Of a stretch of DNA of 34,008 nt, positions 815 to 33,537 are shown piece by piece. The stretch spans positions 1 to 34,008 of the IMG/VR virus record IMGVR_UViG_3300043444_000646; one strand, written 5' to 3'. The notes beneath the pieces are model-generated. The model made no database searches and had not been told where the DNA came from. It was given only the letters and a program-made list of their open reading frames with translations. The position numbers were made by a program, and so were the translations under genes. The stretch comes from a virus. Each line of letters opens with the position of its first letter. The first letter of the stretch is position 1.

Positions 815-2353
815 CTAATTTAATATTTTAGCCTTTTCCCACAATGTTTTTGTAATTTTAAGTAAACGATTCTTTTTAGAATTTTTGTGAGCTTCATATC
901 TATTTCTCCAATATGGATATTTTAAAACCTCTTCAGGGAACCCTAACACTTTGTAAGCTTCTAATCTAACGTCCGGATCGCTATCTTTCAAAGCTTCTTC
1001 AGTAAATCCTAATGATTTGTAAGCTTTTAATCTAATATCAGAATCTATATCTCTCAAAGCTTTTTGAGTAAATCCAAACTTTTTGTAGGCCAAGAGTCTA
1101 ATGTCGGGATTTTCATCTTCTAAAGCTTCCTTTTTGAACCCTAATGCTTTATAAGCTTTTAATCTAATTTCCCAATATTCATCTTTAAAAGCTTCTTCAG
1201 TGAATCCTAATGCTTCGTAAGCTTGTAATCTAAAGCGATCACATTTCTCTTTAAAAGCTTCTGGAGTGAACCCTAATACTCTGTAAGCTTCATATCTAAT
1301 TAGATTAGAACTATCTTTAAAAGCTTCCGCAGTAAATCCTAATGATTGATAAGCATTATATCTAACGTAGAAACTTTTATCTTTAAAAGCTTTTTTAGTA
1401 AACCCTAATTCTCTGTAAGCTTGTAATCTAATATCGGATTTTCTATCTTTAAAAGCTTCCGGAGTAAACCCTAATTTTTTGTAAGCTTCTAATCTAATTA
1501 TCCAACATTTATCTTTTAAAGCTTCTTCATTGAAGCCTAATGCTTCGTAAGCTTCTAATCTAACGTTCCAATTTTTATCTTTTAATGCTTCTTTAGTAAG
1601 CCCTAATTCTTTGTAAGCTTGTAATCTAATTTTCCAATATCTATCTTTTAAAGCTTCTTCAGTAAACCCTAAGCTTTGGTAAGCTTCTAATCTAATTGTC
1701 CGATTACTATCTTTTAAAGCTTCCAACGTAAACCCTAATGCTCTGTAAGCTTCTAATCTGACATACCAAGATTTATCCTTAAAAGCCTTTTCAGTAAACC
1801 CTAATTCTTTGTAAGCTTGTAATCTAATTTTCCAATATCTATCTTTTAAAGCTTTTTCAGTAAACCCATTTGTAGAGTAAAAATCAAGCCTATCCCAATC
1901 ACTTATTGGCAATACAATTTTTTTATTTTTATTTTCAAAATATTTATTTGCTATATACCTAATACAACTTTCTTCATCTTTCAAAGCTTCGTCAGTAAAG
2001 CCCAAAGCTTCGTAAGCCCTTAATCTAATTTCCCAATGAGCATCCTTAAAAGCTTCTTGAGTAAATCCAAATTTTTTGTAAGCCTCAAGCCTAACGCCAT
2101 AATATTCATCTTTAAGATGATCTATAGTAAGGCCGATTTCTTTTAATTTTAATAACCTTCTTTCAAAGAAATTTTTTGCTTGTACTTGTATTTTAAATTC
2201 TTCATCTTTCAAAGCTTCCGGAGTAAACCCTAATGCTTCGTAAGCTTGTAATCTAATTCTCCAATATGGGTCTTTAAAAGCTTCAAGAGTAAAGCCATTT
2301 TTCCTGTAATAAAGAAGCCTTTCCAAATCATTTTCAGGCAATTCATTGTTCAC
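815..2353 (-). CDS. Large 22-residue helical-repeat protein (512 aa), apparent fusion of paralogues
   Basis: The start is a GTG at 2351-2353 that overlaps the stop of the upstream gene (GTGA), giving MNNELPEND like the other family members. About twenty 22-residue units follow (IRLQAYxxLGFTxEALKDxxxx). Residues 131-165 break the pattern: a C-terminus-like stretch (IRYIANKYFENKNKK) runs straight into an N-terminus-like one (LPISDWDRLDFYSTNGF). This looks like the scar of two ancestral genes fused end to end. Residues 55-82 are also degenerate. The C-terminus (KTLWEKAKILN) is out of frame with the usual family ending. The protein is probably a cytoplasmic alpha-solenoid that binds a host or phage partner; the target is unknown. 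It belongs to the leftward operon that also carries the recombination genes. Confidence 0.85.
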   Translation of the reverse strand: MNNELPENDLERLLYYRKNGFTLEAFKDPYWRIRLQAYEALGFTPEALKDEEFKIQVQAKNFFERRLLKLKEIGLTIDHLKDEYYGVRLEAYKKFGFTQEAFKDAHWEIRLRAYEALGFTDEALKDEESCIRYIANKYFENKNKKIVLPISDWDRLDFYSTNGFTEKALKDRYWKIRLQAYKELGFTEKAFKDKSWYVRLEAYRALGFTLEALKDSNRTIRLEAYQSLGFTEEALKDRYWKIRLQAYKELGLTKEALKDKNWNVRLEAYEALGFNEEALKDKCWIIRLEAYKKLGFTPEAFKDRKSDIRLQAYRELGFTKKAFKDKSFYVRYNAYQSLGFTAEAFKDSSNLIRYEAYRVLGFTPEAFKEKCDRFRLQAYEALGFTEEAFKDEYWEIRLKAYKALGFKKEALEDENPDIRLLAYKKFGFTQKALRDIDSDIRLKAYKSLGFTEEALKDSDPDVRLEAYKVLGFPEEVLKYPYWRNRYEAHKNSKKNRLLKITKTLWEKAKILN

Positions 2354-3093
2354 GCAAGAGCTCCCATAAAATATTTTTTTGCTTCTATTCTAATTTCTTC
2401 CGATCTGTCTTTAATTGCGTCAAACCAATAATCTTTATTATTAAAATGATTTAAAGCATCCAATCTAATTTTCCAATATTCATCTTTCAAGGCCTCTTCA
2501 GTAAACCCTAATACTTTGTAAGCGTCATATCTAATGCCCCAATTTTCATCTTTAAAAGCTTCTGTAGTGAAACCTAAATTTTGGTAAGCTTGCGACCTAA
2601 TCATTTGATCTTTATCTTTAAAAGCTTCCGGAGTAAATCCTAATGCTTCGTAAGCATTAAGCCTAATTTCCCAATACTCATCTTTTAAAGCTTCTGGTGT
2701 AAACCCTAATTTTTTGTAAGCTTCTAATCTAATTAAAAAGTTTTCATCTTTAAAGTCATCTTTAATAAAGCCAAATTTCCTTTTGGCCCCTAATCTAATT
2801 TCAGAATATTTATTATTAACATCTTCTTCTATAAATCCAAACTCCTCGAATAACAAAAGATTCAATGAAGAAATAAATTTGCCAATAAAATCTTTAAGCT
2901 TATCATCATCAACACCATTAAACCAGTCGCCCATATAATAAAAATCATTTATTCTGAATTTACCAATATTTAAATTCACGAATGCAATCAATCTAATTAT
3001 CAATGATGCATCTTTTAAAGCCTCTTTAGCAAACCCATTTTTTATGTAATATCTTATCCTTTGTTTTTCATCTTCTGGCAATTCATTGTTCAT
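2350..3093 (-). CDS. 22-residue helical-repeat protein (247 aa)
   Basis: The chosen start is the ATG at 3091-3093, preceded by a clear AAGGAGATAAA ribosome site and giving MNNELPEDEKQR. An upstream in-frame ATG at 3121-3123 gives MGNKLPEGDK and looks like a degenerate second copy of the same start cassette. Residues 1-45 carry a first unit; the next 40 residues (FYYMGDWFNGVDDDKLKD onward) are non-repeat. Six to seven regular units then follow. The first part is closely related to the short gene at 3751-4011. The stop overlaps the next gene's GTG, so translation is probably coupled. The function is unknown; it is probably a binding scaffold. Confidence 0.8.
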   Translation of the reverse strand: MNNELPEDEKQRIRYYIKNGFAKEALKDASLIIRLIAFVNLNIGKFRINDFYYMGDWFNGVDDDKLKDFIGKFISSLNLLLFEEFGFIEEDVNNKYSEIRLGAKRKFGFIKDDFKDENFLIRLEAYKKLGFTPEALKDEYWEIRLNAYEALGFTPEAFKDKDQMIRSQAYQNLGFTTEAFKDENWGIRYDAYKVLGFTEEALKDEYWKIRLDALNHFNNKDYWFDAIKDRSEEIRIEAKKYFMGALA

Positions 3094-3112
3094 TTTATCT
3101 CCTTCTGGCAAT

Positions 3113-3724
3113 TTATTTCCCATTTTCTTTCCTATTTGCAAGGTATTCTTGAGCTCCATTTCTAATCTTCCAATATGTATCTTCTAAAGCTTCTTCAGTA
3201 AATCCTAATGCTTTGTAAGCTTGAAATCTGACTTCGTTATCTTCATCTTTCAAAGCTTCCGGAGTGGATCCTAATGCTTTGTAAGCAAGTAGTCTAATTT
3301 CCCCGAACGGGTCTTTAAAAGCTTCTTCAGTAAACCCTAATTTTTTGTAAGCCTCTAATCTAATTCTCCAATATTTATCTTTAAAAGCTTGTTTTGTAAA
3401 CCCTTCTTTTAACCAAGATTGCAATCTAAGTAAGCCCGATTGGTATTCATCATCGTCTTGTAAAAAAAGAATTGTGGCATCATTAGCTAATGATGCGATC
3501 AATTCATCTTTATCGTTTAAAGCTTCTTTAGTAAACCCGAATTGCAAATAAGCTTCCAATCTAATTAATCTATGCTTATGTTTAAGAGCTTTTTTAGTGA
3601 ATTTTACGACCCCGTAAAAGCCTTTTTCAACTGTCCAATATTTACACGAAAATCCTTCAGGAAACCCATTTTTTCTGTAATAAATAAGCCTGTCCCAATC
3701 ATCTTCTGGCAATTCATTGTTCAT
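3113..3724 (-). CDS. 22-residue helical-repeat protein (203 aa)
   Basis: The start is the ATG at 3722-3724 (MNNELPEDDWDRL) after GGAAGATAAA; other ATGs lie 12-18 bases upstream without a better ribosome site. After the shared N-terminal cassette there is a less regular stretch, then units such as YWRIRLEAYKKLGFTEEAFKD. It ends IRNGAQEYLANRKENGK, the usual family terminus. The 3' end overlaps the degenerate start cassette of the downstream gene. It is a member of the six-gene family transcribed leftward. No enzyme motif is visible. Confidence 0.8.
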   Translation of the reverse strand: MNNELPEDDWDRLIYYRKNGFPEGFSCKYWTVEKGFYGVVKFTKKALKHKHRLIRLEAYLQFGFTKEALNDKDELIASLANDATILFLQDDDEYQSGLLRLQSWLKEGFTKQAFKDKYWRIRLEAYKKLGFTEEAFKDPFGEIRLLAYKALGSTPEALKDEDNEVRFQAYKALGFTEEALEDTYWKIRNGAQEYLANRKENGK

Positions 3725-3750
3725 TTTATCTTCCATCATCAAATTACTCT

Positions 3751-4011
3751 TTATTCATCTAATACTAAAAGATTTAATTTAGAAATAAATTTGTCAATAA
3801 ATTTTTTAAACTTATCATCATCAATACCCTCATAGTAGTAACCTCCCAAATAAAAATCATCTATATCTAAGTGTAATTTACCAATATTTAAATTCACAAA
3901 TGCAATTAATCTAATTACCAGTGATTTATCTTTTAAAGATTTCTTAGTAAACCCATTTTGGATGTAATACCTTAGCCTTTCTTTTTCATCTTCCGGTAAT
4001 TCAGCGACCAT
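3751..4011 (-). CDS. Truncated helical-repeat paralogue (86 aa)
   Basis: It starts at the ATG at 4009-4011 with the variant N-terminus MVAELPEDEKER and a GAAGGAC ribosome site somewhat upstream. It matches the first about 85 residues of the protein at 2350-3093 (shared blocks IRLIAFVNLNIGK and DDFY, then DDDKxKxFIxKFIS) but stops at LNLLVLDE, where the longer copy goes on into regular units. It therefore keeps the N-terminal and non-repeat parts but loses the solenoid. It may be a stand-alone cap, a decaying copy, or a modulator of the longer proteins. It is the first of the family genes after the ssDNA-binding protein gene. Confidence 0.7.
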   Translation of the reverse strand: MVAELPEDEKERLRYYIQNGFTKKSLKDKSLVIRLIAFVNLNIGKLHLDIDDFYLGGYYYEGIDDDKFKKFIDKFISKLNLLVLDE

Positions 4012-4054: not shown

Positions 4055-4474
4055 TTAAAATGGTATTTCGTCATCTACTACTTCATTTTTATCAGTAGAT
4101 TTGTCTTCAATCGGTATGTATTTCTTGACTTTTAAAAGAGTTCCTTTTTCAGTTGCTTCATTTACTAATTCAACGGTACCTCTTTTGCCTTTTAGGTCAT
4201 AAGCGGTTAATGACCCTTGTTTCAACTTTGATATAACTTCTTCTCCAATTGATTTTGCCAATTGCGAAAGCTTCCATCTAACTGTTGAAACAATATAATC
4301 TCTTATTTCTAAAGAAGACCCAGATTCATCTTCTATTAAAAGAAAGAGCAAAAACATATCATTTCCACTGCTTGACTTTTTCTCTATAGATTCTGTTATT
4401 GAAAACCTATATATGCCAGGGGAAAAGCTTTTGTCTTTTTTAATTTCTTCTTCAGTAAACGGTGGAAAATACAT
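4055..4474 (-). CDS. DUF669-like single-stranded DNA-binding protein
   Basis: This 139-residue protein begins MYFPPFTEEEI and has the layout of phage DUF669 proteins, which sit next to RecA-like ATPases and act as ssDNA-binding proteins. Its C-terminus is DDEIPF, an acidic tip nearly identical to the bacterial SSB tail that recruits replication and repair proteins. The gene follows the ATPase gene by a single base after the stop, with a GAAGGAC ribosome site. It probably coats ssDNA during replication and recombination and loads the neighbouring ATPase or host enzymes. The family call rests on context, size and the tail rather than a strong sequence signature. Confidence 0.65.
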   Translation of the reverse strand: MYFPPFTEEEIKKDKSFSPGIYRFSITESIEKKSSSGNDMFLLFLLIEDESGSSLEIRDYIVSTVRWKLSQLAKSIGEEVISKLKQGSLTAYDLKGKRGTVELVNEATEKGTLLKVKKYIPIEDKSTDKNEVVDDEIPF

Positions 4475-4475
4475 G

Positions 4476-5336
4476 TTATTGTCCTTCTATGGTTGGTGGA
4501 GTCATTTTTTCTTTTAATTTTTCTATTATATTTTGGATCAATGTTGAGTCCAGATCTTCAAATTTGTCTACGTCGTATTTCTTTAGGCACTTAGACTTGT
4601 TTTCTTCTGATATGTTAAACATTTTAAAATAATTATTTAATTCAAGCAATTGATCTTTAGTTGCTAATTCTATGTTTAAAGTGTCTTTGTCAAGAGTCCC
4701 ATTGTTGTATCTTTTTGATATCTCTTTGTAGGAAAATGGGATCTCCTCAAATTGAACAAATGATTCTATTCTAGACTTGACAACCAATGCTTTTCTTTCT
4801 TTACCTATGGCCTTTACCTCAAGGCAAAGGTCAAAAAGATAGGGGAGGTCTTTGTACCCAGAAAACGTTTGCCCGATTGTTGCCATATTTGGCAAGTATT
4901 CATTTTTAGAGTAAGCGGTCAAAATGACGTTCATATCTACTTTTAGCAGCCAACTTATCAAGTATTTCATCTTTTTGTTAGCAGCGCCCAGGTGTTTTCC
5001 AAAGCCAGACCCCTTTTCTTCTTCCATTTCAATAAGCAAGTTATCATAAACTATCGTTATAGGGTCTATGATCAATGTTTTGTAATGGTGCTTTTCAGTG
5101 GCTAACGCTTTAACTTCTTTTAAGATTTCTTCAAAGTTTGAAGTATTGAATACAGCTCCGTTGCCTTTTTTTATCATGTCGACGTATTGGTCATTTTCTG
5201 CACCTTTCTCACAGTCTATTAAGTAGGGCGCCGGAAATTGAATAGAGGCAAATGTTTTGCCTACCCCAGCCTTCCCGTAAAGAAACGCCTTAAATCGCTT
5301 CTCTGTCTTGCTTGGCGTCTTTCCTCTTAATGCCAT
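4476..5336 (-). CDS. RecA/Sak4-like phage ATPase (AAA_24 type)
   Basis: The start is the ATG at 5334-5336 (MALRGKTPSK), directly after AAGGAGAAAACT; an upstream in-frame extension lacks a ribosome site. The Walker A motif GKAGVGKT is at residues 21-28 and Walker B (TLIIDP, Asp91) follows, with further conserved Asp and Glu residues. At 286 residues it fits the phage AAA_24 nucleotide-binding family, related to RecA/Rad51-like single-strand annealing proteins (Sak4). Known relatives pair with a DUF669 ssDNA-binding protein, which is the next gene here. The likely role is ATP-driven annealing or strand exchange in phage DNA replication and recombination. Confidence 0.8.
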   Translation of the reverse strand: MALRGKTPSKTEKRFKAFLYGKAGVGKTFASIQFPAPYLIDCEKGAENDQYVDMIKKGNGAVFNTSNFEEILKEVKALATEKHHYKTLIIDPITIVYDNLLIEMEEEKGSGFGKHLGAANKKMKYLISWLLKVDMNVILTAYSKNEYLPNMATIGQTFSGYKDLPYLFDLCLEVKAIGKERKALVVKSRIESFVQFEEIPFSYKEISKRYNNGTLDKDTLNIELATKDQLLELNNYFKMFNISEENKSKCLKKYDVDKFEDLDSTLIQNIIEKLKEKMTPPTIEGQ

Positions 5337-5347
5337 AGTTTTCTCCT

Positions 5348-5530
5348 TTATGATATTATTAATACAATGAACATGATTGCTATAAACACAATAGCGCATC
5401 CTATCTTTTCCGCTAAACTTTCCTTTTCTTCTTTGTCTTCAATTTCCCCTAGGTTGTTTTCCGAAAACTGTAATGCATCTTGCATCCAGTTGTTTCTTAT
5501 TTTCACTTCTTTGTAAATGCTATTTTTCAT
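5348..5530 (-). CDS. Small single-pass membrane protein
   Basis: This 60-residue protein starts at the ATG at 5528-5530 after AAGGAAG. The first about 40 residues are charged (NNLGEIEDKEEKESLAEK). The rest is one hydrophobic segment (CAIVFIAIMFIVLIIS) that runs to the end, giving a C-terminal membrane anchor with the charged part probably in the cytoplasm. It lies between the unknown 114-residue gene and the ATPase gene in the leftward early operon. The function is unknown; small tail-anchored early proteins in phages often modify the host envelope. Confidence 0.65.
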   Translation of the reverse strand: MKNSIYKEVKIRNNWMQDALQFSENNLGEIEDKEEKESLAEKIGCAIVFIAIMFIVLIIS

Positions 5531-5551
5531 TTTTACTTCCTTGTTTTTGGT

Positions 5552-5896
5552 TTAAAAAGGGATATGTAAATACTTTTGAGGTATTTCTTGATCTTCAAAT
5601 GACTTTTGATATCTATCTTCCATCATTTTTGAGATCATAGGCTCAAAATAAGTGATTAGTTTAGATTCTATTTCTTCTTTTAAATTGGATTTTTTATCGT
5701 TGTTAAGGTGCATTCTTATAATTTCTGGTATATTAATGCCTTCAAGATAAGTTTCATAATCGTCAAATGAAGGGGATTCTAAGGCGTAAAGAACCATGTT
5801 CTTTTGTTCTTTATAGGATAGGTCGTCGAAATTTATGTTCCCTCTGGTTTCAACTAGCTCTTCTATGACATCCGATATTTTGAATTGATAATACAT
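5552..5896 (-). CDS. Hypothetical early protein (114 aa)
   Basis: This is the first gene after the strong leftward promoter; its ATG at 5894-5896 lies about 25 bases from the predicted transcript start. It is acidic and apparently soluble, with a helical middle and a C-terminus ending YLHIPF. Its IPF end recalls the DDEIPF tip of the ssDNA-binding protein two genes downstream, but with no acidic run, so the match may be chance. No family was recognised. Its first position in an operon with an operator-bearing promoter suggests an early regulatory or host-takeover role. Confidence 0.65.
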   Translation of the reverse strand: MYYQFKISDVIEELVETRGNINFDDLSYKEQKNMVLYALESPSFDDYETYLEGINIPEIIRMHLNNDKKSNLKEEIESKLITYFEPMISKMMEDRYQKSFEDQEIPQKYLHIPF

Positions 5897-5928
5897 GTTA
5901 AAATCCTTTTTTTGTTTATCCTAAGATA

Positions 5929-5957
5929 ATAGTAAGGCATCCATGCCTTAGTGTCAA
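5929..5957 (-). promoter_or_regulatory. Strong sigma70 promoter for the leftward operon
   Basis: On the minus strand the -35 is TTGACA (5952-5957), the spacer is 17 bases and the -10 is TACTAT (5929-5934). The spacer contains the operator palindrome. It lies just upstream of the first leftward operon gene and should transcribe toward the repeat-protein genes. Confidence 0.8.
5933..5950. promoter_or_regulatory. Operator palindrome TAAGGCATCCATGCCTTA
   Basis: This is a perfect 18-bp dyad with core AGGCA-N4-TGCCT, placed between the -35 and -10 of the leftward promoter, where a bound repressor would block RNA polymerase. The same core recurs at 6274-6287. The neighbouring helix-turn-helix protein is the natural candidate to bind it. 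Confidence 0.7.
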
Positions 5958-5962
5958 CAAGT

Positions 5963-6223
5963 TTATTCAAAGTATTTCCCAAGATCTGGCCTTAACATTT
6001 TCATGGAAACCCATTCTAGTTTTTCGTTTATCTTTTGGGCTTCTAAAAGGGTCATTTTTCGCCTCATCTTTCCAGTTTTTTCATTATAGTTTGAAGAGGA
6101 CACCCATTTGTAAAGGTAATCCCTATGCCTGCCAAGTAAATTGGCTGTATTGGTAATTCCTCCGAGTTCCTCATAGATTTTCATTAACAATTCCCTATAG
6201 GATTGCCATTCTTCTGGGTTCAT
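5963..6223 (-). CDS. Helix-turn-helix DNA-binding regulator (86 aa)
   Basis: The start is chosen at the ATG at 6221-6223 (MNPEEWQSYRELL): a GAGGTG ribosome site lies just upstream, and a possible GTG start six bases earlier falls inside that site. A helix-turn-helix is likely in GGITNTANLLGRHRDYLYKW, followed by a basic stretch (KTGKMRRK) and a second helix. The size and divergent position match phage Cro- or CI-like control proteins. It sits between two promoters that share the operator core AGGCA-N4-TGCCT. By inference it represses the leftward operon, the replication operon and itself. No peptidase or dimerisation domain of a full CI protein is present. Confidence 0.7.
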   Translation of the reverse strand: MNPEEWQSYRELLMKIYEELGGITNTANLLGRHRDYLYKWVSSSNYNEKTGKMRRKMTLLEAQKINEKLEWVSMKMLRPDLGKYFE

Positions 6224-6251
6224 TTTCACCTCTTACTGTAGGAAATTCCCC

Positions 6252-6279
6252 ATTGTAGCATACCTGTATTGATAGGCAA
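6252..6279 (-). promoter_or_regulatory. Promoter for the helix-turn-helix gene
   Basis: On the minus strand, TTGCCT (6274-6279), a 16-base spacer and an extended -10 TGCTACAAT (TACAAT at 6252-6257) lie 29 bases upstream of the ATG. The -35 box is half of the operator palindrome, so binding there would shut off this gene (autoregulation). Confidence 0.6.
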
Positions 6280-6297
6280 TAATGCCTGAAGTATATT
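6269..6297 (+). promoter_or_regulatory. Rightward early promoter
   Basis: TTGATA (6269-6274), a 17-base spacer and TATATT (6292-6297) lie upstream of the replication initiator gene. The operator at 6274-6287 fills most of the spacer. It is divergent to and overlaps the promoter of the regulator gene. Confidence 0.7.
6274..6287. promoter_or_regulatory. Operator AGGCAATAATGCCT in the divergent promoter region
   Basis: This 14-bp dyad AGGCA-N4-TGCCT has the same half-sites and spacing as the operator at 5933-5950. It covers the -35 of the leftward regulator promoter and the spacer of the rightward promoter, so one bound dimer could control both. Confidence 0.7.
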
Positions 6298-6327
6298 GGT
6301 TCTTTATAAACTTTTACGGAGGAAAGT

Positions 6328-7245
6328 ATGGAATATAGTTTTGATATCAAGCTGGCAAAGGAATTAGGGGTATACGAGGCGATTTTTCTAAAGAACATGC
6401 AGTTCTGGATCATTCACAACAAAGCTCACAATAAACACTTTAAAAACGATAGAACGTGGACCTATACGTCCTTAGAGGCTTTGATCAAGTTATTTCCTTT
6501 TTGGACAAAAGACCAAATCTATTACATTGTGCAAAAATTGGTCAAGAAGTCTATTATTTTGACTGAAAAATTCAGCAAGCAAGCCCTGAACCATTGCAAT
6601 TGGTATGCCTTCGTTGACGAAAGTAGGTTTTTATGTGGGTTTAATGGCAAAAATGAGGTGAAAAATATTGAGGAAAATAAAGAAGAAAAAACAAATACTT
6701 ATGATACGGTAGGTGAGGTTTACCCCTATAATTATCGATTTTGGAATTTTCCAAAATCGATGTTGGAAAATTCCAAAATCACACTTATATATACAGATAC
6801 TAATATTAATATTAATAATGTAAAGCCGTCGAAACGTACAGAATCCCAGGTCAAAGACAGCGATCTGAATCTGGCGGCACTAAAATTTCTTTTTAAAGAT
6901 TTTAAAGAAAAGATGGAGAAAAAGGAGGTAAGCGGGAAAGACATCCACAAGCTAGATTTAGAATCCCAATCAGCGGCTCTATTAGCGTTTATGAGCGTTA
7001 AAATGGGAAAGGTAATACTACCGGTGCGGTCTAACATAAAACCCATCCTATCGCGCTTAAAAGAGGGTATAAACGAGAATGATATTCGATGTGTCATGAT
7101 GATGAAATTTCAGGAATGGAAAGATGATCCAAAAATGAGCAAATACATCCGGGTTGAGACCATTTTTAGACCATCCAAGTTTTATGATTACCTTAGCAAC
7201 CTTCATCCTGTTGAAGTTATCCCCCCCAATACCTTAGGAGTTTAA
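6328..7245 (+). CDS. Phage replication initiator (winged-helix plus Phg_2220_C-like)
   Basis: This 305-residue protein starts at the ATG at 6328 after ACGGAGGAAAGT. Residues 1-90 resemble the winged-helix part of phage replisome organisers (LGVYEAIFLKNMQFWI, then TWTYTSLEAL). The C-terminal part (FQEWKDDPKMSKYIRVETIF then KFYDYL) matches the phage Phg_2220_C domain that follows such initiators. The middle, which carries the origin sequence, is Asn-rich and poorly structured, as in lambda O. It probably binds the origin inside its own gene and loads host helicase and primase. It is the first gene of the rightward early operon. There is no phage helicase or polymerase, so it must recruit host factors. 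Confidence 0.8.
   Translation: MEYSFDIKLAKELGVYEAIFLKNMQFWIIHNKAHNKHFKNDRTWTYTSLEALIKLFPFWTKDQIYYIVQKLVKKSIILTEKFSKQALNHCNWYAFVDESRFLCGFNGKNEVKNIEENKEEKTNTYDTVGEVYPYNYRFWNFPKSMLENSKITLIYTDTNININNVKPSKRTESQVKDSDLNLAALKFLFKDFKEKMEKKEVSGKDIHKLDLESQSAALLAFMSVKMGKVILPVRSNIKPILSRLKEGINENDIRCVMMMKFQEWKDDPKMSKYIRVETIFRPSKFYDYLSNLHPVEVIPPNTLGV
6737..6825. other. Candidate replication origin inside the initiator gene
   Basis: Two abutting 22-bp dyads occur at 6737-6758 and 6759-6780. The half-site is GATTTTGGAA with its inverse TTCCAAAATC, separated by two bases. The first dyad is perfect and the second has one mismatch in its left arm. Directly downstream is an AT-rich stretch (6781-6825, with repeated TAATATTAAT) that could melt easily. 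The layout of iterons with internal symmetry, an AT-rich side and a location within the initiator gene is that of the lambda O origin. Confidence 0.7.
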
Positions 7246-8017: not shown

Positions 8018-8266
8018 ATGAGACCATGTGACAAAATTTGTACAGTCTGCAGAGGATTAAAATTTGTAATAGGTGTTGGATATATGAGGGAAAAGTGCCA
8101 TAATTGTGATGGATTAGGCTATTTGATTGTATCCCCCCGACTTGAAGCTTTGGAAAAAGCTATCGAATCTGAAAAGCCTAAGAAGAGAATGGGGCGTCCT
8201 CCAAAAGTTCGCCCAGTAGAAGGAGGGGATGAAAATGGCAAAATTGAAAGCAAAATCTCGGAATAA
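8018..8266 (+). CDS. Zinc-knuckle protein with AT-hook-like tail
   Basis: This 82-residue protein starts at the ATG at 8018 (AAGG nearby). The pair CTVCRG and CHNCDGLG is the CxxCxG(xG) zinc motif of the DnaJ central region, here as one minimal finger in the first 35 residues. The C-terminal half is basic and includes KRMGRPPK, similar to an AT-hook that binds AT-rich minor grooves. A role in binding DNA or in protein folding during replication is likely but not shown. The end of the gene overlaps the next coding region. Confidence 0.7.
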   Translation: MRPCDKICTVCRGLKFVIGVGYMREKCHNCDGLGYLIVSPRLEALEKAIESEKPKKRMGRPPKVRPVEGGDENGKIESKISE

Positions 8267-8459
8267 AATTCCATCTTCTGAGTTTGGTTTACCTAAAGAA
8301 AGAAAATATCCCATGGAAGACAAAGCCCATGCTAGGAACGCAAAAGCTAGGGCTTCTCAAATGAAAAATGAAGGGAAGCTGTCTTCAGCGCAAAAGTCTA
8401 AGATAGACGCAAAAGCTAACAGGGTCCTTGGGAAGAGTAAAGCAAGGAAGAAGTCGTGA
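8235..8459 (+). CDS. Small basic phage protein (74 aa)
   Basis: The start is set at the ATG at 8235 (MAKLKAKSRNKIP) because the AAGGAGG site is eight bases away; the in-frame ATG at 8229 is only two bases from it. The sequence PSSEFGLPKERKYP, then DKAHARNAKARAS, matches a small family common in phages in which this acidic-to-basic pattern precedes a Lys-rich tail. It is highly basic overall and probably contacts DNA or a head protein. It overlaps the zinc-knuckle gene by 32 bases. Confidence 0.7.
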   Translation: MAKLKAKSRNKIPSSEFGLPKERKYPMEDKAHARNAKARASQMKNEGKLSSAQKSKIDAKANRVLGKSKARKKS

Positions 8460-8480
8460 TTGTAAAAGGGAGTTACAATC
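8458..8480 (+). promoter_or_regulatory. Hairpin presenting the ribosome site of the next gene
   Basis: GATTGTAA (8458-8465) and TTACAATC (8473-8480) are perfect inverse arms around the seven-base loop AAGGGAG, which is the ribosome site. The ATG of the next gene follows at once. The element either exposes the site in the loop or lets a protein mask it. Confidence 0.6.
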
Positions 8481-9518
8481 ATGATCCCAGAAAAGAAAAA
8501 GAAGACCAAAAAGTCTATCGTCAAGCCTGTTAGCACCTCAATTCCTAAGCAGTTAAAGAATTTCATGGATGTTGAGTTTTTTAACATGTGGAGGACATTA
8601 TCTAATTCGAATCAAATAACCTCTTTTTTAAGATTTTTGATTCAAATGAATAACTTCTGTATAAACTTTGAACAGAATTCTCCAAAGAATATTGATAAAT
8701 CTTCACTATTATTTGAGTCTGTTGCTGAAAAGCTTTCCTTGTTAAGCCTTTCAGACTACTCATCGTGCCTTATTACGCTTACCGTGATAAACTTTAAGCG
8801 ATTCGTTGAAAGACAAGATTTTTATAAAAAAGAGCTGATAGAGCTTTTTAAATTGTCCGAATTTTATACAAGGTGGGATGAAAAGATCAAATTCATGGAC
8901 CTCATCATTATGGAACTTGATAGGTTTGCTCCTACACAAGGAGGATATGAGCAGATCATAGAGTGGGAAGAGACTTTTAAAAAGCATGTTCATCATTCTG
9001 TTGAAGTCATATATTTAAGACAAATATGCCTAAATACTATCTCCCCACGGAAAAGAAAAAATGAGGAAATATTTAACGTGGACGTTACTAAAATAGATTA
9101 TACCTATGAAGTAAGAGCTAACAAAGAATACAAAGAGTATTGCGATTATGCCGACCTTCTCTACAAAAGGATCTTTAAGCCATTCATAGTCCACATCGCC
9201 AAAAGCAATTGTGGAGCTATCAGGCCCCTTATTCACTCTACGAGCTTTACTGACTTTGTAAAGAACTCTTTTACCAATAGGCGTATCCCAGAACGAAAAA
9301 GATTCCTTTTAGACATTGAGAACGCTAGAGATAGCCTCCTTGAAGCAAAAGACAAATCTTCCGATAAAAAGCTTTTGGCGATTATTAAATTTAGAGAAGA
9401 AATTGAAAATCTGTTAAGAGTAGAAAATGAGCAGAATTTTTGTTCATTTTTTAAGCCAAAAAGCAAAATGTCTGAATGCATCCAAAATGCGCTTAACTTT
9501 ATGCCTTCTAGACGATAA
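8481..9518 (+). CDS. Hypothetical protein (345 aa)
   Basis: Its start at the ATG at 8481 is fixed by the hairpin-borne ribosome site. The N-terminus is very basic (EKKKKTKKSIVK). The rest is predicted mainly helical, with no membrane segment and no motif recognised. Being the last gene before the accessory promoter, and long for this region, it may be a replication or host-takeover protein. The last codons reach to within about 20 bases of the next promoter. Confidence 0.7.
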   Translation: MIPEKKKKTKKSIVKPVSTSIPKQLKNFMDVEFFNMWRTLSNSNQITSFLRFLIQMNNFCINFEQNSPKNIDKSSLLFESVAEKLSLLSLSDYSSCLITLTVINFKRFVERQDFYKKELIELFKLSEFYTRWDEKIKFMDLIIMELDRFAPTQGGYEQIIEWEETFKKHVHHSVEVIYLRQICLNTISPRKRKNEEIFNVDVTKIDYTYEVRANKEYKEYCDYADLLYKRIFKPFIVHIAKSNCGAIRPLIHSTSFTDFVKNSFTNRRIPERKRFLLDIENARDSLLEAKDKSSDKKLLAIIKFREEIENLLRVENEQNFCSFFKPKSKMSECIQNALNFMPSRR

Positions 9519-9534
9519 ATATTTCAAATAGCAC

Positions 9535-9563
9535 TTTACATTAAGTCCATTATGCCTTAACAT
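9535..9563 (+). promoter_or_regulatory. Promoter for the accessory block, with operator half-site
   Basis: TTTACA (9535-9540), a 17-base spacer and TAACAT (9558-9563). The sequence ATGCCTTAACATTATCTTAG resembles the leftward promoter (ATGCCTTACTATTATCTTAG) in 18 of 20 positions. The right operator half TGCCT (9553-9557) is kept in the same place, while the left half is degenerate (AGTCC). Confidence 0.7.
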
Positions 9564-9570
9564 TATCTTA

Positions 9571-9638
9571 GTGGGGTTCAACGCCAGCACGGTTTAAGAA
9601 AAAGACTCCTTTAAACTGTTGAGCCCCACAACCTTTTT
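9571..9638 (+). ncRNA. 5'-terminal leader hairpin, possible small RNA or attenuator
   Basis: The predicted transcript starts at about 9570. GTGGGGTTCAAC (9571-9582) pairs with GTTGAGCCCCAC (9618-9629) over 12 base pairs with a single G-U. Inside, GTTTAA and TTAAAC can form a second short stem. A five-T run follows at 9634-9638. The element could protect the 5' end, act as an attenuator, or be released as a short RNA. No known RNA family was recognised. Confidence 0.5.
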
Positions 9639-9661
9639 AACGATTTTCAAAAGGAATTAAA

Positions 9662-10015
9662 ATGTGCAAATACCAAGATAAATATGATGTCCCACTCAAT
9701 TTCCCAGAAATGGATAATGAAATGATTGAGAAAATTGCTCATCTTATACACATTCAATTTAAAGAATGGTGCGTATCCTATATTAGAAGACTAATAGAAG
9801 ATGATTTAATTTGTTTAAAAAGAGAAGACCAAGGAAAGAGTCCTTCTGATTTGGCTGACGACTTTTATTCAAAAATAGTCCTTAACAGACATTTGAAAAA
9901 TTATGGACCAAGACCAACGCGCACCTTCTCTGATTCGATAATAGAAGAAATACATTTAACTCAAAATGAGGGCAAAAGGTTTAGAAAAGCATTGGAAGAT
10001 TATTTAAAAAAATAA
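9662..10015 (+). CDS. Accessory family A protein, copy 1 (117 aa)
   Basis: It starts at the ATG at 9662 after AAGGAATTAAA. It shares a pattern with the proteins at 10241-10660 and 10990-11403: N-terminal LNFPEMDNEMIEKIA, a middle R-x2-I (YIRRLIED), an Asp-Phe-Tyr block (ADDFYSKIV) and a C-terminal EGKRFRKALEDYLKK. It is a helical, charged protein with no enzyme motif. The family was not recognised. Repeated copies beside another small family suggest an accessory or host-interaction role rather than virion structure. Confidence 0.7.
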   Translation: MCKYQDKYDVPLNFPEMDNEMIEKIAHLIHIQFKEWCVSYIRRLIEDDLICLKREDQGKSPSDLADDFYSKIVLNRHLKNYGPRPTRTFSDSIIEEIHLTQNEGKRFRKALEDYLKK

Positions 10016-10024
10016 GGAATTAAA

Positions 10025-10222
10025 ATGCAAAAAGAAAACATTTGCATTCAATCAACGAATGTCAAACCAAATTCGTGGGGAACACTGGAACCCGGTGATG
10101 TTCATTTTTGCTTCCCGGTTGAGTATCGTACAGGACATAAAAAAATGGAGAAAAATATTTGTACGGACATTCCCAATTATAATAGGAATAAATTCGTTCT
10201 CTTCAATAAAAAAGTAAAATAA
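10025..10222 (+). CDS. Small hypothetical protein (65 aa)
   Basis: This short gene starts at the ATG at 10025 with the same AAGGAATTAAA leader as its neighbours. It contains three Cys residues (Cys7, Cys29, Cys45) and two aromatic-rich stretches (VHFCFPVEY and RNKFVLFNKK). No family was recognised, and it shows no clear similarity to either paralogous set. The leader supports it being translated. It may be a stray third component of the accessory block. Confidence 0.5.
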   Translation: MQKENICIQSTNVKPNSWGTLEPGDVHFCFPVEYRTGHKKMEKNICTDIPNYNRNKFVLFNKKVK

Positions 10223-10240
10223 AAAAAATAAGGGATTAAA

Positions 10241-10660
10241 ATGAATCAAAATAATGTAAGTGATGAAGTCAAATTAGATATAACAAAAAATGAAATACTT
10301 AATTTTCCAGAAATTGATGATGAAATGATTGATAAAATTTCTGATATAATAGAAGCTCATAGCAAAAAAGTTATTAAGAAATTTATAAGATTAGTTATCG
10401 ACCCTGAAATTTTACAACAATTAAAAAATAAAGGAATTAAAAAATGCGACGAATGTGAAAATCTTTATGACTTGGCAGAAAAATATTTTCATGAACTATA
10501 TTACTTCCGAGCATTTGGAACAAATGACACAAACATGAAACTCAGAGCTACTGAAGCATTGGAGTTGGTGAGGAGAGAAGGAAGAATGTTTAGAAAGTCT
10601 TTAGCTGATTATTCAAAGAAATCTAACGGCTGTATGTTTAATACAGCAGATGAAGTTTAA
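10241..10660 (+). CDS. Accessory family A protein, copy 2 (139 aa)
   Basis: Its start at the ATG at 10241 follows AAGGGATTAAA. It has the family pattern: LNFPEIDDEMIDKIS near residue 22, KKFIRLVIDP, AEKYFHELY and EGRMFRKSLADYSKK. Compared with copy 1 it carries an N-terminal extension of about 15 residues and an insert with CDEC, a possible metal pair. The 3' end overlaps the ribosome site of family B copy 1. The function is unknown. Confidence 0.7.
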   Translation: MNQNNVSDEVKLDITKNEILNFPEIDDEMIDKISDIIEAHSKKVIKKFIRLVIDPEILQQLKNKGIKKCDECENLYDLAEKYFHELYYFRAFGTNDTNMKLRATEALELVRREGRMFRKSLADYSKKSNGCMFNTADEV

Positions 10661-10670
10661 GGAGGAGCAA

Positions 10671-10973
10671 ATGGAAAAAGATAAAAGATATAAGTACTTT
10701 ATTAGTTCTGATTATGATATATCCAACTTAGTTGAGTTTATAAACAGCTCAGACATTCAATCTTATATTTTTCTGCATGTAGAAAAAGAAAATAGAGATA
10801 TTTTAGGATGCTCTGAGAATTTAAAAATTTACGATGTTGTAAGAATCTTGCTTAACTTAAAGGAAGAAACAATTGGCCAGATTAATCAACAATTTGAAGT
10901 GGATGAAACAATTGAGAAAATTAAAGGGTTCATTAGATCTGCTGGCGACGGTCGTGATGGAGTTTTGCATTAG
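10671..10973 (+). CDS. Accessory family B protein, copy 1 (100 aa)
   Basis: The start is placed at the ATG at 10671 (MEKDKRYKYFISSD), with AAGGAGGAGCAA just before; an upstream extension would overlap family A copy 2. It shares with 11400-11645 and 11626-11862 a pattern of a short beta strand, a helix (LVEFINSSD), a strand (IQSYIFLHVEKE) and an LxxxLxxL helix. No catalytic residues are visible. Its alternation with family A genes suggests that the two products act together or are traded as pairs. Confidence 0.65.
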   Translation: MEKDKRYKYFISSDYDISNLVEFINSSDIQSYIFLHVEKENRDILGCSENLKIYDVVRILLNLKEETIGQINQQFEVDETIEKIKGFIRSAGDGRDGVLH

Positions 10974-10989
10974 TAAATAAGGATTAAAA

Positions 10990-11403
10990 ATGGATTATAG
11001 GTACTATATTGATATGTTTTATCCTTTTCCGTATAAAAAGGTTAATAATTTTAAAAAAATGAATTTTCCAAAGATGGATGAAGAAATGGTTGCTAAAATT
11101 TCAGCAGGTATGACTGAAATATTAGTGAGCTATTCTAGATGGATGATCGCTGAGCTAATAGTGTCAGGGCAGATCCTTCCAAAAAAACAATACAAGAAAT
11201 TATCTAATGATGAATTGATTAACCAAATATATTATGATTTTTGTTTAAGGGTTGTTAAAGCTGATAATAATAATTTGTCAGATTATGCACATTTTGGATA
11301 TATATTTTTTCAAAACTTAACAAGAGATTTTAAGCATTTATTTAAATCATTTGTAAGGGAAGGAGAAAATTTTAGAAAATCTAACAAAAAGGTTGAAGAA
11401 TGA
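10990..11403 (+). CDS. Accessory family A protein, copy 3 (137 aa)
   Basis: It starts at the ATG at 10990 after AAGGATTAAAA. Family blocks are MNFPKMDEEMVAKIS, then RWMIAELIVSG, the YYDFCLRVVK region and EGENFRKSNKKVEE. It is the most divergent copy in the middle but has the same start and end signature. The stop overlaps the ATG of family B copy 2 (ATGA), so translation of the two is probably coupled. It is helical and soluble by appearance, with unknown function. Confidence 0.7.
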   Translation: MDYRYYIDMFYPFPYKKVNNFKKMNFPKMDEEMVAKISAGMTEILVSYSRWMIAELIVSGQILPKKQYKKLSNDELINQIYYDFCLRVVKADNNNLSDYAHFGYIFFQNLTRDFKHLFKSFVREGENFRKSNKKVEE

Positions 11404-11645
11404 ACAAAAACAATAAAAAGAACGTTTACAAGGTTGAGTCAAAAGCCAACCTACAAGCACTTATAGACATATTAAATGAAGGAACCGTGTGCTCCTTCAT
11501 TTTTATGTGCGATTTGGAAGAAGATTTGGAGAAAGGTAGAGTTGTTTCTTGTAATCTTGATAAAGAAACACTTATAAAATCGCTTAGAAATTTTGCAGAT
11601 TATTTGGAAAAAGAAGGTAAAGAAGATGGAAAAGAAAAAATCTAA
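11400..11645 (+). CDS. Accessory family B protein, copy 2 (81 aa)
   Basis: The ATG at 11400 overlaps the end of family A copy 3. The sequence NVYKVESKANLQALIDILNE, then SFIFMCDLEE, VVSCNLDK and LIKSLRNFADYLEKE, follows the strand-helix-strand-helix layout of copy 1. It ends in a Lys/Glu-rich tail. It is probably a small soluble partner protein; no known domain was recognised. The next family member starts inside its 3' end. Confidence 0.65.
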   Translation: MNKNNKKNVYKVESKANLQALIDILNEGTVCSFIFMCDLEEDLEKGRVVSCNLDKETLIKSLRNFADYLEKEGKEDGKEKI

Positions 11646-11862
11646 TTTGGATTCGGAAAACAAACCTATTTTTATTGAAATATTAAACGAAAAAAAAGTG
11701 TACGGCCATGTTCTTATATACCAAGTAATAGGAGATTTGGACAAATATCTAGAAAAAGAAAATGAAGAAGATGTAGTTATTCATTGTGAACTCAATGGAG
11801 ATCCAAGTAATCTTGAAAAAATAATTGCCAATGAAATAAAGAAAAAAAGAAAAAAGGTATAA
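11626..11862 (+). CDS. Accessory family B protein, copy 3 (78 aa)
   Basis: The start is the ATG at 11626 (MEKKKSNLDSENK), with AAGG and AAAGAAG upstream, overlapping the previous gene by 20 bases in a different frame. The shared pattern is FIEILNEKKVYGHVLIYQV, an acidic loop, a strand (DVVIHCELNG) and a final helix with a basic tail (KKKRKKV). It is the last of the small-protein array before the terminase small subunit, and its stop lies four bases from that gene. The function is unknown. Confidence 0.6.
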   Translation: MEKKKSNLDSENKPIFIEILNEKKVYGHVLIYQVIGDLDKYLEKENEEDVVIHCELNGDPSNLEKIIANEIKKKRKKV

Positions 11863-11865
11863 AAG

Positions 11866-12339
11866 ATGCAAAAGAGAAAATTTAATCCCGATATTGCAAA
11901 CAAGCCTCTTACTATGAGGCAGGAGAAGTTTGTACGATTCTATATTGAGAATGGAGGCAACGGAGAGAAGGCTGCAATTGATGCTGGGTATGAGAGACGA
12001 AGTGCTATTGTAATTGCTGCAGAGAACCTCACGAAGCCTAATATTGCTCAAAAATTGAACAGCTTGAAGGAGAAGATACTTTTACCGATAGAAGAAAGGA
12101 CTGGTCTTACTCTAGAGTACAAGATGAACTCGATTGTAAAGGGCATAGAAGCTTGTTTAAGCGGGGAAGCTAAAGGCAATGGTAAGGTAGATGCCAAGGG
12201 CTTAGCGTCTCTTATAGCTGAAGCAAACAAGATGCAGGGGCATTATGCACCAGAGAAGCACGTGAACGCAAATGTGACCTCTACGGTTGACCAAGAGGTG
12301 ATGAGTGATCTGATCAAAAAGTATACAAAGGAGTATTAG
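11866..12339 (+). CDS. terS: Terminase small subunit
   Basis: This 157-residue protein has the Terminase_2 layout: LTMRQEKFVRFYIENGGN, then EKAAIDAGY and the helix-turn-helix-like block AENLTKPNIAQKLN. A central oligomerisation helix and a flexible C-terminus follow. Known members recognise the packaging site on phage DNA as a ring and hand the DNA to the large subunit. It is separated from the large subunit gene by two accessory genes, an unusual gap, and shares the transcript of the accessory block. Confidence 0.85.
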   Translation: MQKRKFNPDIANKPLTMRQEKFVRFYIENGGNGEKAAIDAGYERRSAIVIAAENLTKPNIAQKLNSLKEKILLPIEERTGLTLEYKMNSIVKGIEACLSGEAKGNGKVDAKGLASLIAEANKMQGHYAPEKHVNANVTSTVDQEVMSDLIKKYTKEY

Positions 12340-12340
12340 A

Positions 12341-12634
12341 GTGAAAATGAATAAATTTTTTGGCTTTCTTTCAAAAATTGCCCTTCCTTCATATTGTTTT
12401 TCCGTTTTTATAACACTTGTTATGGATATTTTGAATGAAAATTTACATACTTTTCTATATTGCTGGGCAGCGCTTGGGTTTATGTTTTTTCTTATTGTAA
12501 TGCAGTCTATTAAAGTCCGTAATCTTAAGAAAGAAATGGAACTAAGAAAATTAATGTTTGATACTTATTTGGCTGGTAAAGACGGTAGGATGAATGAGGT
12601 AGACTCTATTTATGATAGAAAGGAAAGGTATTAA
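12341..12634 (+). CDS. Small two-pass membrane protein next to the Panacea gene
   Basis: The start is the GTG at 12341, seven bases after AAGGAG; the in-frame ATG at 12347 is 13 bases from it. Two hydrophobic segments (SYCFSVFITLVMDI and FLYCWAALGFMFFLIVM) are followed by a charged helix (RNLKKEMELRKL). It ends one base before the gene for a Panacea-domain protein. In toxin-antitoxin systems with Panacea antitoxins the adjacent gene can be a membrane-acting toxin, which makes this protein a candidate partner. It could equally be an unrelated phage membrane protein. Confidence 0.65.
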   Translation: MKMNKFFGFLSKIALPSYCFSVFITLVMDILNENLHTFLYCWAALGFMFFLIVMQSIKVRNLKKEMELRKLMFDTYLAGKDGRMNEVDSIYDRKERY

Positions 12635-12635
12635 T

Positions 12636-13106
12636 ATGCTTTCTTGTTTTGATGTATCCAAGATTATCCTTGGTTACAGGAAAAGGATTTCAAAAGCTTG
12701 GTTACAAAGTCTTCTTTATTATTGCCAGGCCTGTCATCTATGCACAATGAAAGAGCCTCTCTTTATTGAGAAAATAGAAGCTTGGATTAGTGGGCCAATC
12801 ATAAAAGAGTTGTATGAATTTCTTTTTCCTATTGGAAGAAATCTAATAACTAAGTCAGATTTTGATTGCTTTGATAATTCATCTTTGGAAAAAGAAGAAA
12901 ACATAAAGATTAAAAAACAAATGATTAAGGAAATTGTTCACGTTTATACACATACGCCTTTAAAGACAGATCTTGATATTAGGAATATATTAAGATATGA
13001 AAGGCCTTGGAATGATGCTAGAAAAGGGTTGCTGGATAGCGAGCGTGGTAGTAATGAGATAAGCCATCAATCCCTTATTGATTTTTATAGTAGATTTTAT
13101 AGTTGA
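12636..13106 (+). CDS. Panacea (DUF4065/GepA-like) domain protein
   Basis: The start is the ATG at 12636 (MLSCFDVSK), directly after the upstream stop, with AAAGG. The motif LQSLLYYCQACHLCT, then EAWISGPIIKELYEF, and the late ERPWNDAR are typical of the DUF4065/Panacea fold. It is known both as a mobile-element protein (GepA, SocA) and as an antitoxin domain that neutralises diverse toxins. At 156 residues it is a stand-alone domain. The upstream membrane protein is a possible toxin partner. It ends just before the late promoter. Confidence 0.8.
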   Translation: MLSCFDVSKIILGYRKRISKAWLQSLLYYCQACHLCTMKEPLFIEKIEAWISGPIIKELYEFLFPIGRNLITKSDFDCFDNSSLEKEENIKIKKQMIKEIVHVYTHTPLKTDLDIRNILRYERPWNDARKGLLDSERGSNEISHQSLIDFYSRFYS

Positions 13107-28058: not shown

Positions 28059-28409
28059 ATGGGCGCTGTACCAAGCTTTTCTATCACGAAAGACGTCAAT
28101 GGATTGAATGCTTATGGAACAAGATTTGTTCCTAATGAATATCAGTATCAAGTGGGTTTGGCAGCAGCAGCTGAGCAAACTTTGACCGTTCCAAATAACG
28201 TCGATACCGCTATTTTCTCTTATACATCTCCTACGGTTTGGGTTGGTACGGGATCAACTCCCATAAACCTACCCACTCTTGGATTTACTCAAACTCCAGC
28301 TGTTTTGAATCATGCTGTAAAAGAAGTTGTACCAGGAGAAACCTTGAGGTTTATAAGCAGTGTGGTGGCTGAAGTTGGCGTTGTATTTTTCAACAGGTCT
28401 TCTCAATGA
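28059..28409 (+). CDS. Hypothetical virion-associated protein (116 aa)
   Basis: It starts at the ATG at 28059 after AAGGAGAAAAA. The sequence is beta-rich (QTLTVPNNVDTAIFSYTSPT, ETLRFISSVVAEVGVVFFN) and has the shape of a small jelly-roll or decoration protein. It lies between the large fibre and the repeat protein, overlapping the latter by ATGA, so it probably belongs to the fibre complex. No family was recognised. Confidence 0.65.
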   Translation: MGAVPSFSITKDVNGLNAYGTRFVPNEYQYQVGLAAAAEQTLTVPNNVDTAIFSYTSPTVWVGTGSTPINLPTLGFTQTPAVLNHAVKEVVPGETLRFISSVVAEVGVVFFNRSSQ

Positions 28410-29371
28410 GTAAGAACTGGTATACGGGTGGTCATCCGATACATGGGATTCTTACGAAAGGCCCATTTACAGATGTAAGCGGTGAAATCCCGGTTATACC
28501 ACCACCCGTTATTAACAATGCTTTATTGCAAGAAGATGGATTCTTTTGGTTGCAAGAAGATGGCAGCTACTTGTTGCTTGAAAATGGGATGCCATCGATT
28601 AATAACGCATTGCTTCAAGAGAATGGATTCTTTTGGCTTCAAGAAGATGGAAGTTATCTATTGCAAGAAGATGGGATGCCATCTATTGATAATGCTTTGC
28701 TTCAAGAAGATGGATTCTTCTGGTTACAAGAAGATGGCAGCTATCTTTTAAGAGAAAATGGATTGCCATCTATTGATAACGCTCTTTTACAAGAAGACGG
28801 CTATTTTTGGCTACAAGAGGATGGAAGTTATCTATTAAGAGAGAATGGCGCTCCAACTGTTGATAACGCTTTATTGCAAGAAGATGGGTTCTTCTGGCTG
28901 CAAGAGGACGGGAGTTATCTATTAAGAGAAAGCGGCACTCCGACTGTTGATAACGCTCTTTTACAAGAAAACGGATTCTTTTGGCTCCAAGAAGATGGAA
29001 GTTACTTGTTAAGAGAGAGCGGCGCTCCGACTGTTGATAACGCTTTGCTTCAGGAAAATGGATTCTTCTGGTTGCAAGAAGACGGTAGCTACTTATTAAG
29101 AGAATCTGGAACTCCAACTATTGATAACGCATTACTTCAAGAGAACGGATTCTTTTGGCTTCAAGAAGATGGAAGCTACTTATTGAAAGAATCTGGCACT
29201 CCTTCTATTGATAATGCTTTGTTGCAAGAAAACGGTTCTTTCTGGCTTCAAGAAGATGGGAATTATCTATTAAAAGAAGATGGATCTCCTTCTATTACCA
29301 ATGCTTTATTGCAAGAAAATGGTTCTTTTTTGCTCCAGGAAAATGGCAACTACCTACTTATGGAAGTTTAA
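28406..29371 (+). CDS. Tandem 29-residue repeat virion protein
   Basis: The ATG at 28406 overlaps the previous stop. A 36-residue head (MSKNWYTGGHPIHGIL, then PVIPPPVI) is followed by nine full units and one partial unit of 29 residues, with consensus DNALLQEDGFFWLQEDGSYL then LRENGxPSI. Each unit has three short strands with the pattern LLQEDG or YLLRENG, suggesting a regular beta-solenoid or fibre. Units differ mainly at codon level and at a few positions. It could form a rod or bind sugar chains on the host surface. Its place among fibre genes supports a receptor role. Confidence 0.75.
   Translation: MSKNWYTGGHPIHGILTKGPFTDVSGEIPVIPPPVINNALLQEDGFFWLQEDGSYLLLENGMPSINNALLQENGFFWLQEDGSYLLQEDGMPSIDNALLQEDGFFWLQEDGSYLLRENGLPSIDNALLQEDGYFWLQEDGSYLLRENGAPTVDNALLQEDGFFWLQEDGSYLLRESGTPTVDNALLQENGFFWLQEDGSYLLRESGAPTVDNALLQENGFFWLQEDGSYLLRESGTPTIDNALLQENGFFWLQEDGSYLLKESGTPSIDNALLQENGSFWLQEDGNYLLKEDGSPSITNALLQENGSFLLQENGNYLLMEV
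28514..29368 (+). repeat. 87-bp tandem coding repeats
   Basis: There are nine full 87-bp units and one shortened unit, all in frame. Units are similar but carry many synonymous changes, so they are not a very recent expansion. Unit number could vary between related phages by recombination. Confidence 0.85.
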
Positions 29372-32769: not shown

Positions 32770-33330
32770 TTAAACAAGATAAGACAGTGAAACGCTAATG
32801 TTTACACTTTTGTTCTTTATCTCATAAGAAGAACCAGCCGTCATAAACACATTTTGGTTGAAAGCTTTTGTGATGGCAAGCCCTACTATCCTATTAGAGT
32901 TCACAAAATGATCACCATAGATGTCCAAAGAAGAGTCGGCTAGGATCTCGTTTGGGATCAAATAGTAAACACCTCCTCCTAGATCCAAATTTATGCTTTT
33001 TAATGAAAAGAACTTTTCATTTTGCCCATGGTACACGTCGAATGCCACATAAGGCGAAAAGTCACAGCTTTGGTATATTAACCTTGTCTGGGTAGCCCAT
33101 CCCAGCGTTCTGTTAGGATTCATGGTAAACTTTGCTGAAAAGTCTATATAAGGCGTGGGAGTCAGGTTAACGGCCACAAAAGGTAATATCGTGTAATCAG
33201 AAGTGTTGGTTTGAACCCCTCCTTCTATCGACATTAGACTATCTGCAAATGATTCTCCTGAGCATCCTAGTACTACAACCATAAACATGAACATAAAAAT
33301 CTGCATATTTTTTAAAAGTAACTTTTTCAT
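32770..33330 (-). CDS. Secreted outer-membrane-like protein or lipoprotein (186 aa)
   Basis: It starts at the ATG at 33328-33330, overlapping the csrA stop (TTATGA). A signal peptide is clear: KKLLLKN, a hydrophobic run of about 12, and VVVLGC with Cys23 in a plausible lipobox; a signal-peptidase I site (SFA) follows at about residue 29. The mature part has alternating strands ending in aromatic residues and a final SVSLSYLV, like a small outer-membrane beta-barrel with about eight strands. It could change the host surface, for example to block other phages, but this is inference. Confidence 0.7.
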   Translation of the reverse strand: MKKLLLKNMQIFMFMFMVVVLGCSGESFADSLMSIEGGVQTNTSDYTILPFVAVNLTPTPYIDFSAKFTMNPNRTLGWATQTRLIYQSCDFSPYVAFDVYHGQNEKFFSLKSINLDLGGGVYYLIPNEILADSSLDIYGDHFVNSNRIVGLAITKAFNQNVFMTAGSSYEIKNKSVNISVSLSYLV

Positions 33331-33524
33331 AAAACATCCTTATCTTTTTCTAAATTTGTTAATAATTCTGATCTAAAAATAGGTATAGATCTATCACATT
33401 CTATACCAATTTTTATTTGTTTTCCTACACTTCCTAAAAGTGTAATTTTAATATCCATATTATCTCCAATAGTAATAGACTGCCTAACTCGTCTTTTTAA
33501 TATTAGATTTCCTTTTAAAGTCAT
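33327..33524 (-). CDS. csrA: CsrA-family RNA-binding translational regulator
   Basis: The start is the ATG at 33522-33524 (MTLKGNLIL), with AAGGAG before it; an upstream TTG lacks a site. The 65-residue protein aligns to CsrA: LILKRRV (E. coli LILTRRV), then SITIGDNMDIKITLLG, VGKQIKIGIECD and IFRSEL, where Arg51 matches the critical Arg44 of CsrA. CsrA dimers bind GGA-bearing hairpins near ribosome sites and control translation or mRNA decay. Host CsrA controls carbon flow, motility and virulence, so a phage copy may reprogramme host mRNAs or control phage leaders that carry GGA hairpins. Confidence 0.85.
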   Translation of the reverse strand: MTLKGNLILKRRVRQSITIGDNMDIKITLLGSVGKQIKIGIECDRSIPIFRSELLTNLEKDKDVL

Positions 33525-33537
33525 TATTTTCTCCTTG

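Follow-up and report, generated by a model that had tools for sequence, protein, structure and literature searches.

A tandem array of small paralogous genes beside the terminase genes of a P22-like podovirus, apparently without known relatives

What is the crowded row of small genes that precedes the terminase genes of this phage, and on what might its products act? The DNA analysed, hereafter the window, is the whole of IMG/VR record IMGVR_UViG_3300043444_000646 (34,008 nt). By its backbone genes the phage is a P22-like podovirus: replication and recombination genes (single-strand binding, Sak4-like, replication initiator) occupy 4055-7245, and the genes for the terminase small subunit (TerS), terminase large subunit (TerL), portal, coat, head closure and DNA ejection start at 11866, 13162, 14703, 18038, 20011 and 21911, respectively. 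The P22-like head and packaging module (PHROG portal 156, coat 283, head closure 578) is thus the backbone around the array, whereas the array itself stands outside that module. No tRNA was found in the window, and no Rfam family matched it. Three other features were seen in passing. A CsrA-family protein is encoded at 33327-33527 on the minus strand (PF02599, E 6.8e-15), and a CsrA-like ORF is also present in relative L091 (897-1100, minus strand, match 4.9e-4). A run of minus-strand ORFs with HEAT-like repeats (FTxEALKDxxWxIRLxAYxxLG), the longest matching PF02985 (E 1.8e-31), extends over 815-4011 and has the look of a repeat-protein cluster that is split or in decay. Finally, a 321-aa protein built of near-identical repeats (NALLQEDGFFWLQEDGSYLL) adjoins the tail genes (28406-29368).

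Positions 9662-11862 are filled by seven forward ORFs, listed here with local-alignment z scores against shuffled sequences.

9662..10015, plus strand: A1, 117 aa, family A (z 21.8 with A2, 10.4 with A3); coding frame supported
10025..10222, plus strand: x, a 65-codon ORF with an A-type leader, AAGGAATTAAAATG
10241..10660, plus strand: A2, 139 aa, family A; paralogy and coding frame supported
10671..10973, plus strand: B1, 100 aa from the ATG at 10671 (B1/B2 z 4.3); coding frame supported
10990..11403, plus strand: A3, 137 aa, family A (found by the A1+A2 profile at E 6.8e-7; z 10.4 and 8.0)
11400..11645, plus strand: B2, 81 aa, start overlapping the A3 stop (ATGA); coding frame supported
11626..11862, plus strand: B3, 78 aa from the ATG at 11626; membership of family B tentative

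The original prediction described two alternating families with repeated leaders and overlapping genes. The ORF order A, x, A, B, A, B, B was borne out, but x lacks coding support and the B family is tentative. The leader AAGGRATTAAAATG recurs, exactly or nearly so, upstream of A1, x, A2 and A3, but is not found before the B genes. Genes do overlap at A3/B2 (4 nt, ATGA) and at B2/B3 (20 nt), but nowhere else in the array; a longer B1 ORF begins at 10650, and A2 and B1 are free of overlap once the B1 start is placed at the ATG at 10671, which is preceded by AAGGAGGAGCAA. From A1 to TerS the genes either overlap or are separated by 3 to 18 nt, and the array can be read as the units A1-(x), A2-B1 and A3-B2-B3. 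For all of A1-3 and B1-3 the codon signal is stronger in frame than in the shifted frames, the margin being about 0.4 per codon or greater. The GC content of the array is 0.29, compared with 0.39-0.40 in the head genes.

The relationship among the A copies is the firmest result. With 500 shuffles per pair, the z scores were 21.8 (A1/A2), 10.4 (A1/A3) and 8.0 (A2/A3), and no shuffle reached any of the three scores; A2 finds A1 at E 6.5e-13, and A3 is recovered by the profile of the other two. At the level of their sequences, A1, A2 and A3 are certainly true paralogs. As predicted, an N-terminal block (NFPxhDxEMhxKI) and a C-terminal block (EGxxFRK) are conserved across the three copies. Identity between copies reaches 60-73% in the N-terminal motif (9-11 of 15 aligned residues) and 58-67% at the C-terminal end, and is 15-20% in the 70 residues of the middle. 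In both end motifs dN is lower than dS (comparisons between paralogs of one genome), and by this measure the ends are under constraint. The AlphaFold model of A is all-helical, but its confidence (pLDDT 48, pTM 0.27) is too low for the model to be used.

The claim of two paralogous families holds for A but only tentatively for B. The B pairs gave z scores of 4.3 (B1/B2), 3.1 (B2/B3) and 1.7 (B1/B3), and family B is not secure because an unrelated control pair, B3/TerS, scores almost as high as B2/B3 (3.0). Profiles built from two B proteins find the third at E 5.5e-5 for B2, 0.0064 for B3, a weaker score than that of an antisense frame (0.0022), and 0.49 for B1; the BLASTP E value for B2/B3 is 0.001. 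Homology is therefore suggestive for B1/B2 and B2/B3 on these scores, and unsupported for B1/B3. The AlphaFold model of B, likewise too poor for use (pLDDT 57), has two helices and no reliable strands. As to x, its codon signal was −0.09 in frame and −0.17 in the +1 frame, and it is probably no gene, or a decayed one; the idea that it is a remnant of a B gene was rejected, as x resembles neither B nor A. Since B is tentative and x probably not a gene, the A-B pairs are weaker than first described.

Neither family had been recognised from the letters alone, and this stood: A and B gave no above-chance match in Pfam, PHROGs, NCBIfam, PADLOC or PDB sequences. The profile searches that the prediction had called for assigned neither family to a structural, lysis, replication or housekeeping family. 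No relatives of A or B were found in phage and plasmid records (for A by tblastn, with a best plasmid match of E 0.7), and none of B in phages or IMG/VR. For A, profile, single-protein and motif scans of IMG/VR and a scan of GTDB were also negative, the IMG/VR and GTDB scans being seeded on short exact peptide or DNA patterns that distant relatives could escape. A was likewise absent from about 385 Gammaproteobacteria genomes, 16 from the order and 369 from the class of a relative's host, the latter covered by a six-frame profile search. Four weak matches in the 16-genome set were rejected, the best of them (E 0.0068) lying out of frame within a glutaredoxin-like gene. The IMG/VR motif scan with NFPxhDxEM gave 10 loci, mostly 12- or 62-codon frames, none of which was taken as A; those of 85 aa and of 1350 residues were discarded because the EGxxFRK end was absent. 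A literature search on tandem paralog arrays beside terminase genes returned nothing specific. Family A has so far been seen in one genome, and the array is a real, apparently unique accessory gene cluster without known relatives.

An AT-rich array seen in a single genome, with an x that looks decayed, could consist of recent duplicates under little constraint, drifting without a selected function. We consider this unlikely, since all six A and B frames are open with a coding signal and since dN is well below dS at both conserved ends of the A proteins.

The surroundings of the array were compared with those of related phages. The terminase is common to about 50 relatives, and the head module to those of them that were read in more detail. 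They come from IMG/VR, a gammaproteobacterial MAG and prophages, with 43-59% TerL identity, and were recovered through alignments of distant TerLs; the window's TerL or portal alone as query found no backbone relatives. The prophages, which sit in genomes of 1.6-1.9 Mb from the same order as the MAG, have the gene order of the window from TerS through the head and ejection genes; in three, the collinear stretch reaches the tail gene. These backbone relatives suggest that the host is a small-genome gammaproteobacterium. Neither A nor B was found in the relatives' loci by tblastn or profile. Three genes define the site:

8018..8266, plus strand: CxxCxGxG zinc-finger protein, adjoining TerS in most relatives; left edge of the insertion
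8481..9518, plus strand: 345-aa basic orphan protein (pI 9.3), within the 3.6-kb insertion; no family or phage match
11866..12339, plus strand: terminase small subunit, TerS (PF03592, E 5e-14); right edge of the insertion

Because it usually abuts TerS in relatives, the zinc-finger gene marks the left edge of a 3.6-kb insertion. In the 10 relatives with both genes recognised (TerS went unrecognised in about half of the relatives), the gap between them was −52 to +52 nt in eight and 159 and 344 nt in the remaining pair (compare with 3,600 nt in the window, filled by the 345-aa ORF and the array). The TerS-TerL gap varies from −16 to 6,144 nt among relatives; TerS and TerL overlap or abut in prophages L117-L120, and the window carries a second insertion there, with genes for a small hydrophobic protein and a Panacea-domain protein.

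Cargo at the zinc finger-TerS site or in the TerS-TerL interval of relatives includes a C5 DNA methyltransferase (1e-80), Fic/Doc (7e-9) and RNA_pol_A_CTD (2.9e-15), together with ParB_N and GNAT domains and many orphans. The methyltransferase (PF00145) is encoded at 8314-9330 of the TerS-TerL island of L141. The alpha-CTD protein, of 132 aa (PF03118), lies at 1568-1966 in that of L168, and a part in the takeover of host transcription is possible. At least one pair of small paralogs, mostly adjacent, occurs upstream of TerL in 8 of 29 loci. The accessory (moron-type) islands flanking TerS in L139, L141, L156 and L168 share the neighbourhood of the array (zinc finger, TerS, TerL), its small AT-rich genes of no assigned function and its tandem small paralogs (in L139, those at 6660 and 7160 align with a z of 17.7); they differ from it in having wholly different protein families, arranged in pairs, without interleaved A and B. 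Like these islands, the array is variable cargo among the zinc-finger, TerS and TerL genes and is absent from relatives. Because the relatives' islands carry inserts and paralog pairs, the array is best seen as one example of a type of cargo that recurs in this phage group, and a richer example than most. The predicted multi-copy accessory module thus gains support from its AT-richness, the lack of a structural or housekeeping match, its absence from relatives and its place in a 3.6-kb variable-cargo insertion.

The array runs into TerS with a gap of 3 nt and has no convincing promoter, promoter-like matches being fewer than expected from shuffles. This arrangement would suit packaging- or virion-associated accessory proteins, expressed late from a position next to TerS and acting in assembly or DNA packaging. 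Such a role is nevertheless improbable: no relative that shares the packaging and head genes has the array, three diverged copies would be unusual for it, and structural families were not matched.

The location between replication and terminase genes also brings late-gene regulators to mind, Q being the antiterminator at the corresponding place in lambdoid phages. One structure lies between the 345-aa gene and A1:

9571..9629, plus strand: long, imperfect stem-loop with a 12-bp stem (GTGGGGTTCAAC/GTTGAGCCCCAC) and an inner stem

The region 9540-9660 folds with a z of −2.8, the stem-loop has no Rfam match, and it is a possible terminator or attenuator where the array operon begins. A Q-like factor acting on it, as antiterminator or attenuator, might be the 345-aa protein or A, and a stable stem-loop after a weak promoter-like site agrees with this. 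We find the proposal very doubtful, however, as no Q-type homology was found, the promoter match does not rise above chance and three A copies are hard to explain.

Small co-directional genes and the ATGA overlap of A3 with B2 recall toxin-antitoxin operons, and the diverged A-B copies might serve in addiction or in the exclusion of other phages. A Panacea antitoxin-domain gene follows a small hydrophobic protein just past TerS, and Fic/Doc occurs in one relative's island, both in line with this idea. It is nonetheless highly unlikely to be right: the array matched no toxin-antitoxin family in Pfam, NCBIfam or PADLOC, A1 lacks a B partner, and B homology is weak. The genes past TerS (12341-13106) encode a 97-aa protein with hydrophobic stretches and, overlapping it, a Panacea (SocA-like) protein (PF13274, E 3.9e-8). 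Small membrane toxins can be the partners of Panacea antitoxins (PMC8832971), so this could be a phage-borne PanAT pair.

The reading that we prefer, at slightly less than an even chance, is that the array is an accessory island that grew by tandem duplication and acts on the host cell or its defences. Together with the 345-aa orphan gene, the island forms an insertion between the conserved zinc-finger and TerS genes; it would have grown as an A gene, carrying a ribosome-binding leader of its own and in two cases coupled to a downstream B (A2-B1 and A3-B2-B3), was duplicated in tandem and the copies diverged strongly. The close-packed genes are probably transcribed together with the packaging and head genes. 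The likeliest targets of the A and B proteins would be the host cell or its defences, the conserved ends of A forming a shared fold or partner surface, its diverged middle setting the target of each copy, and B serving as a putative co-translated partner. The best argument for such host- or defence-directed roles, which remain hypothetical, comes from the genes carried in the islands of relatives (methyltransferase, Fic/Doc, alpha-CTD).

An anti-defence role is plausible and compatible with these island genes. Phage anti-defence gene clusters are small, orphan, fast-evolving, multi-gene accessory clusters, as is the array; the array showed no sequence match to them, and no known defence or anti-defence family in PADLOC, Pfam, NCBIfam or PHROG matched the array. 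Many anti-defence functions are expressed early, and the presumed late-operon position would fit a virion or lysis function no less than an anti-defence one. We give a small chance to the bolder idea that A is a new phage inhibitor family in which the ends stay constant and the middle is diversified; each copy, paired with a B protein or escorted by one, would hit a different host defence or host protein. If the copies do differ in target, a single phage would carry a ready set of related inhibitors with which to find host defences or weak points. At the least, the flanks of TerS in this phage group are places to look for accessory genes.
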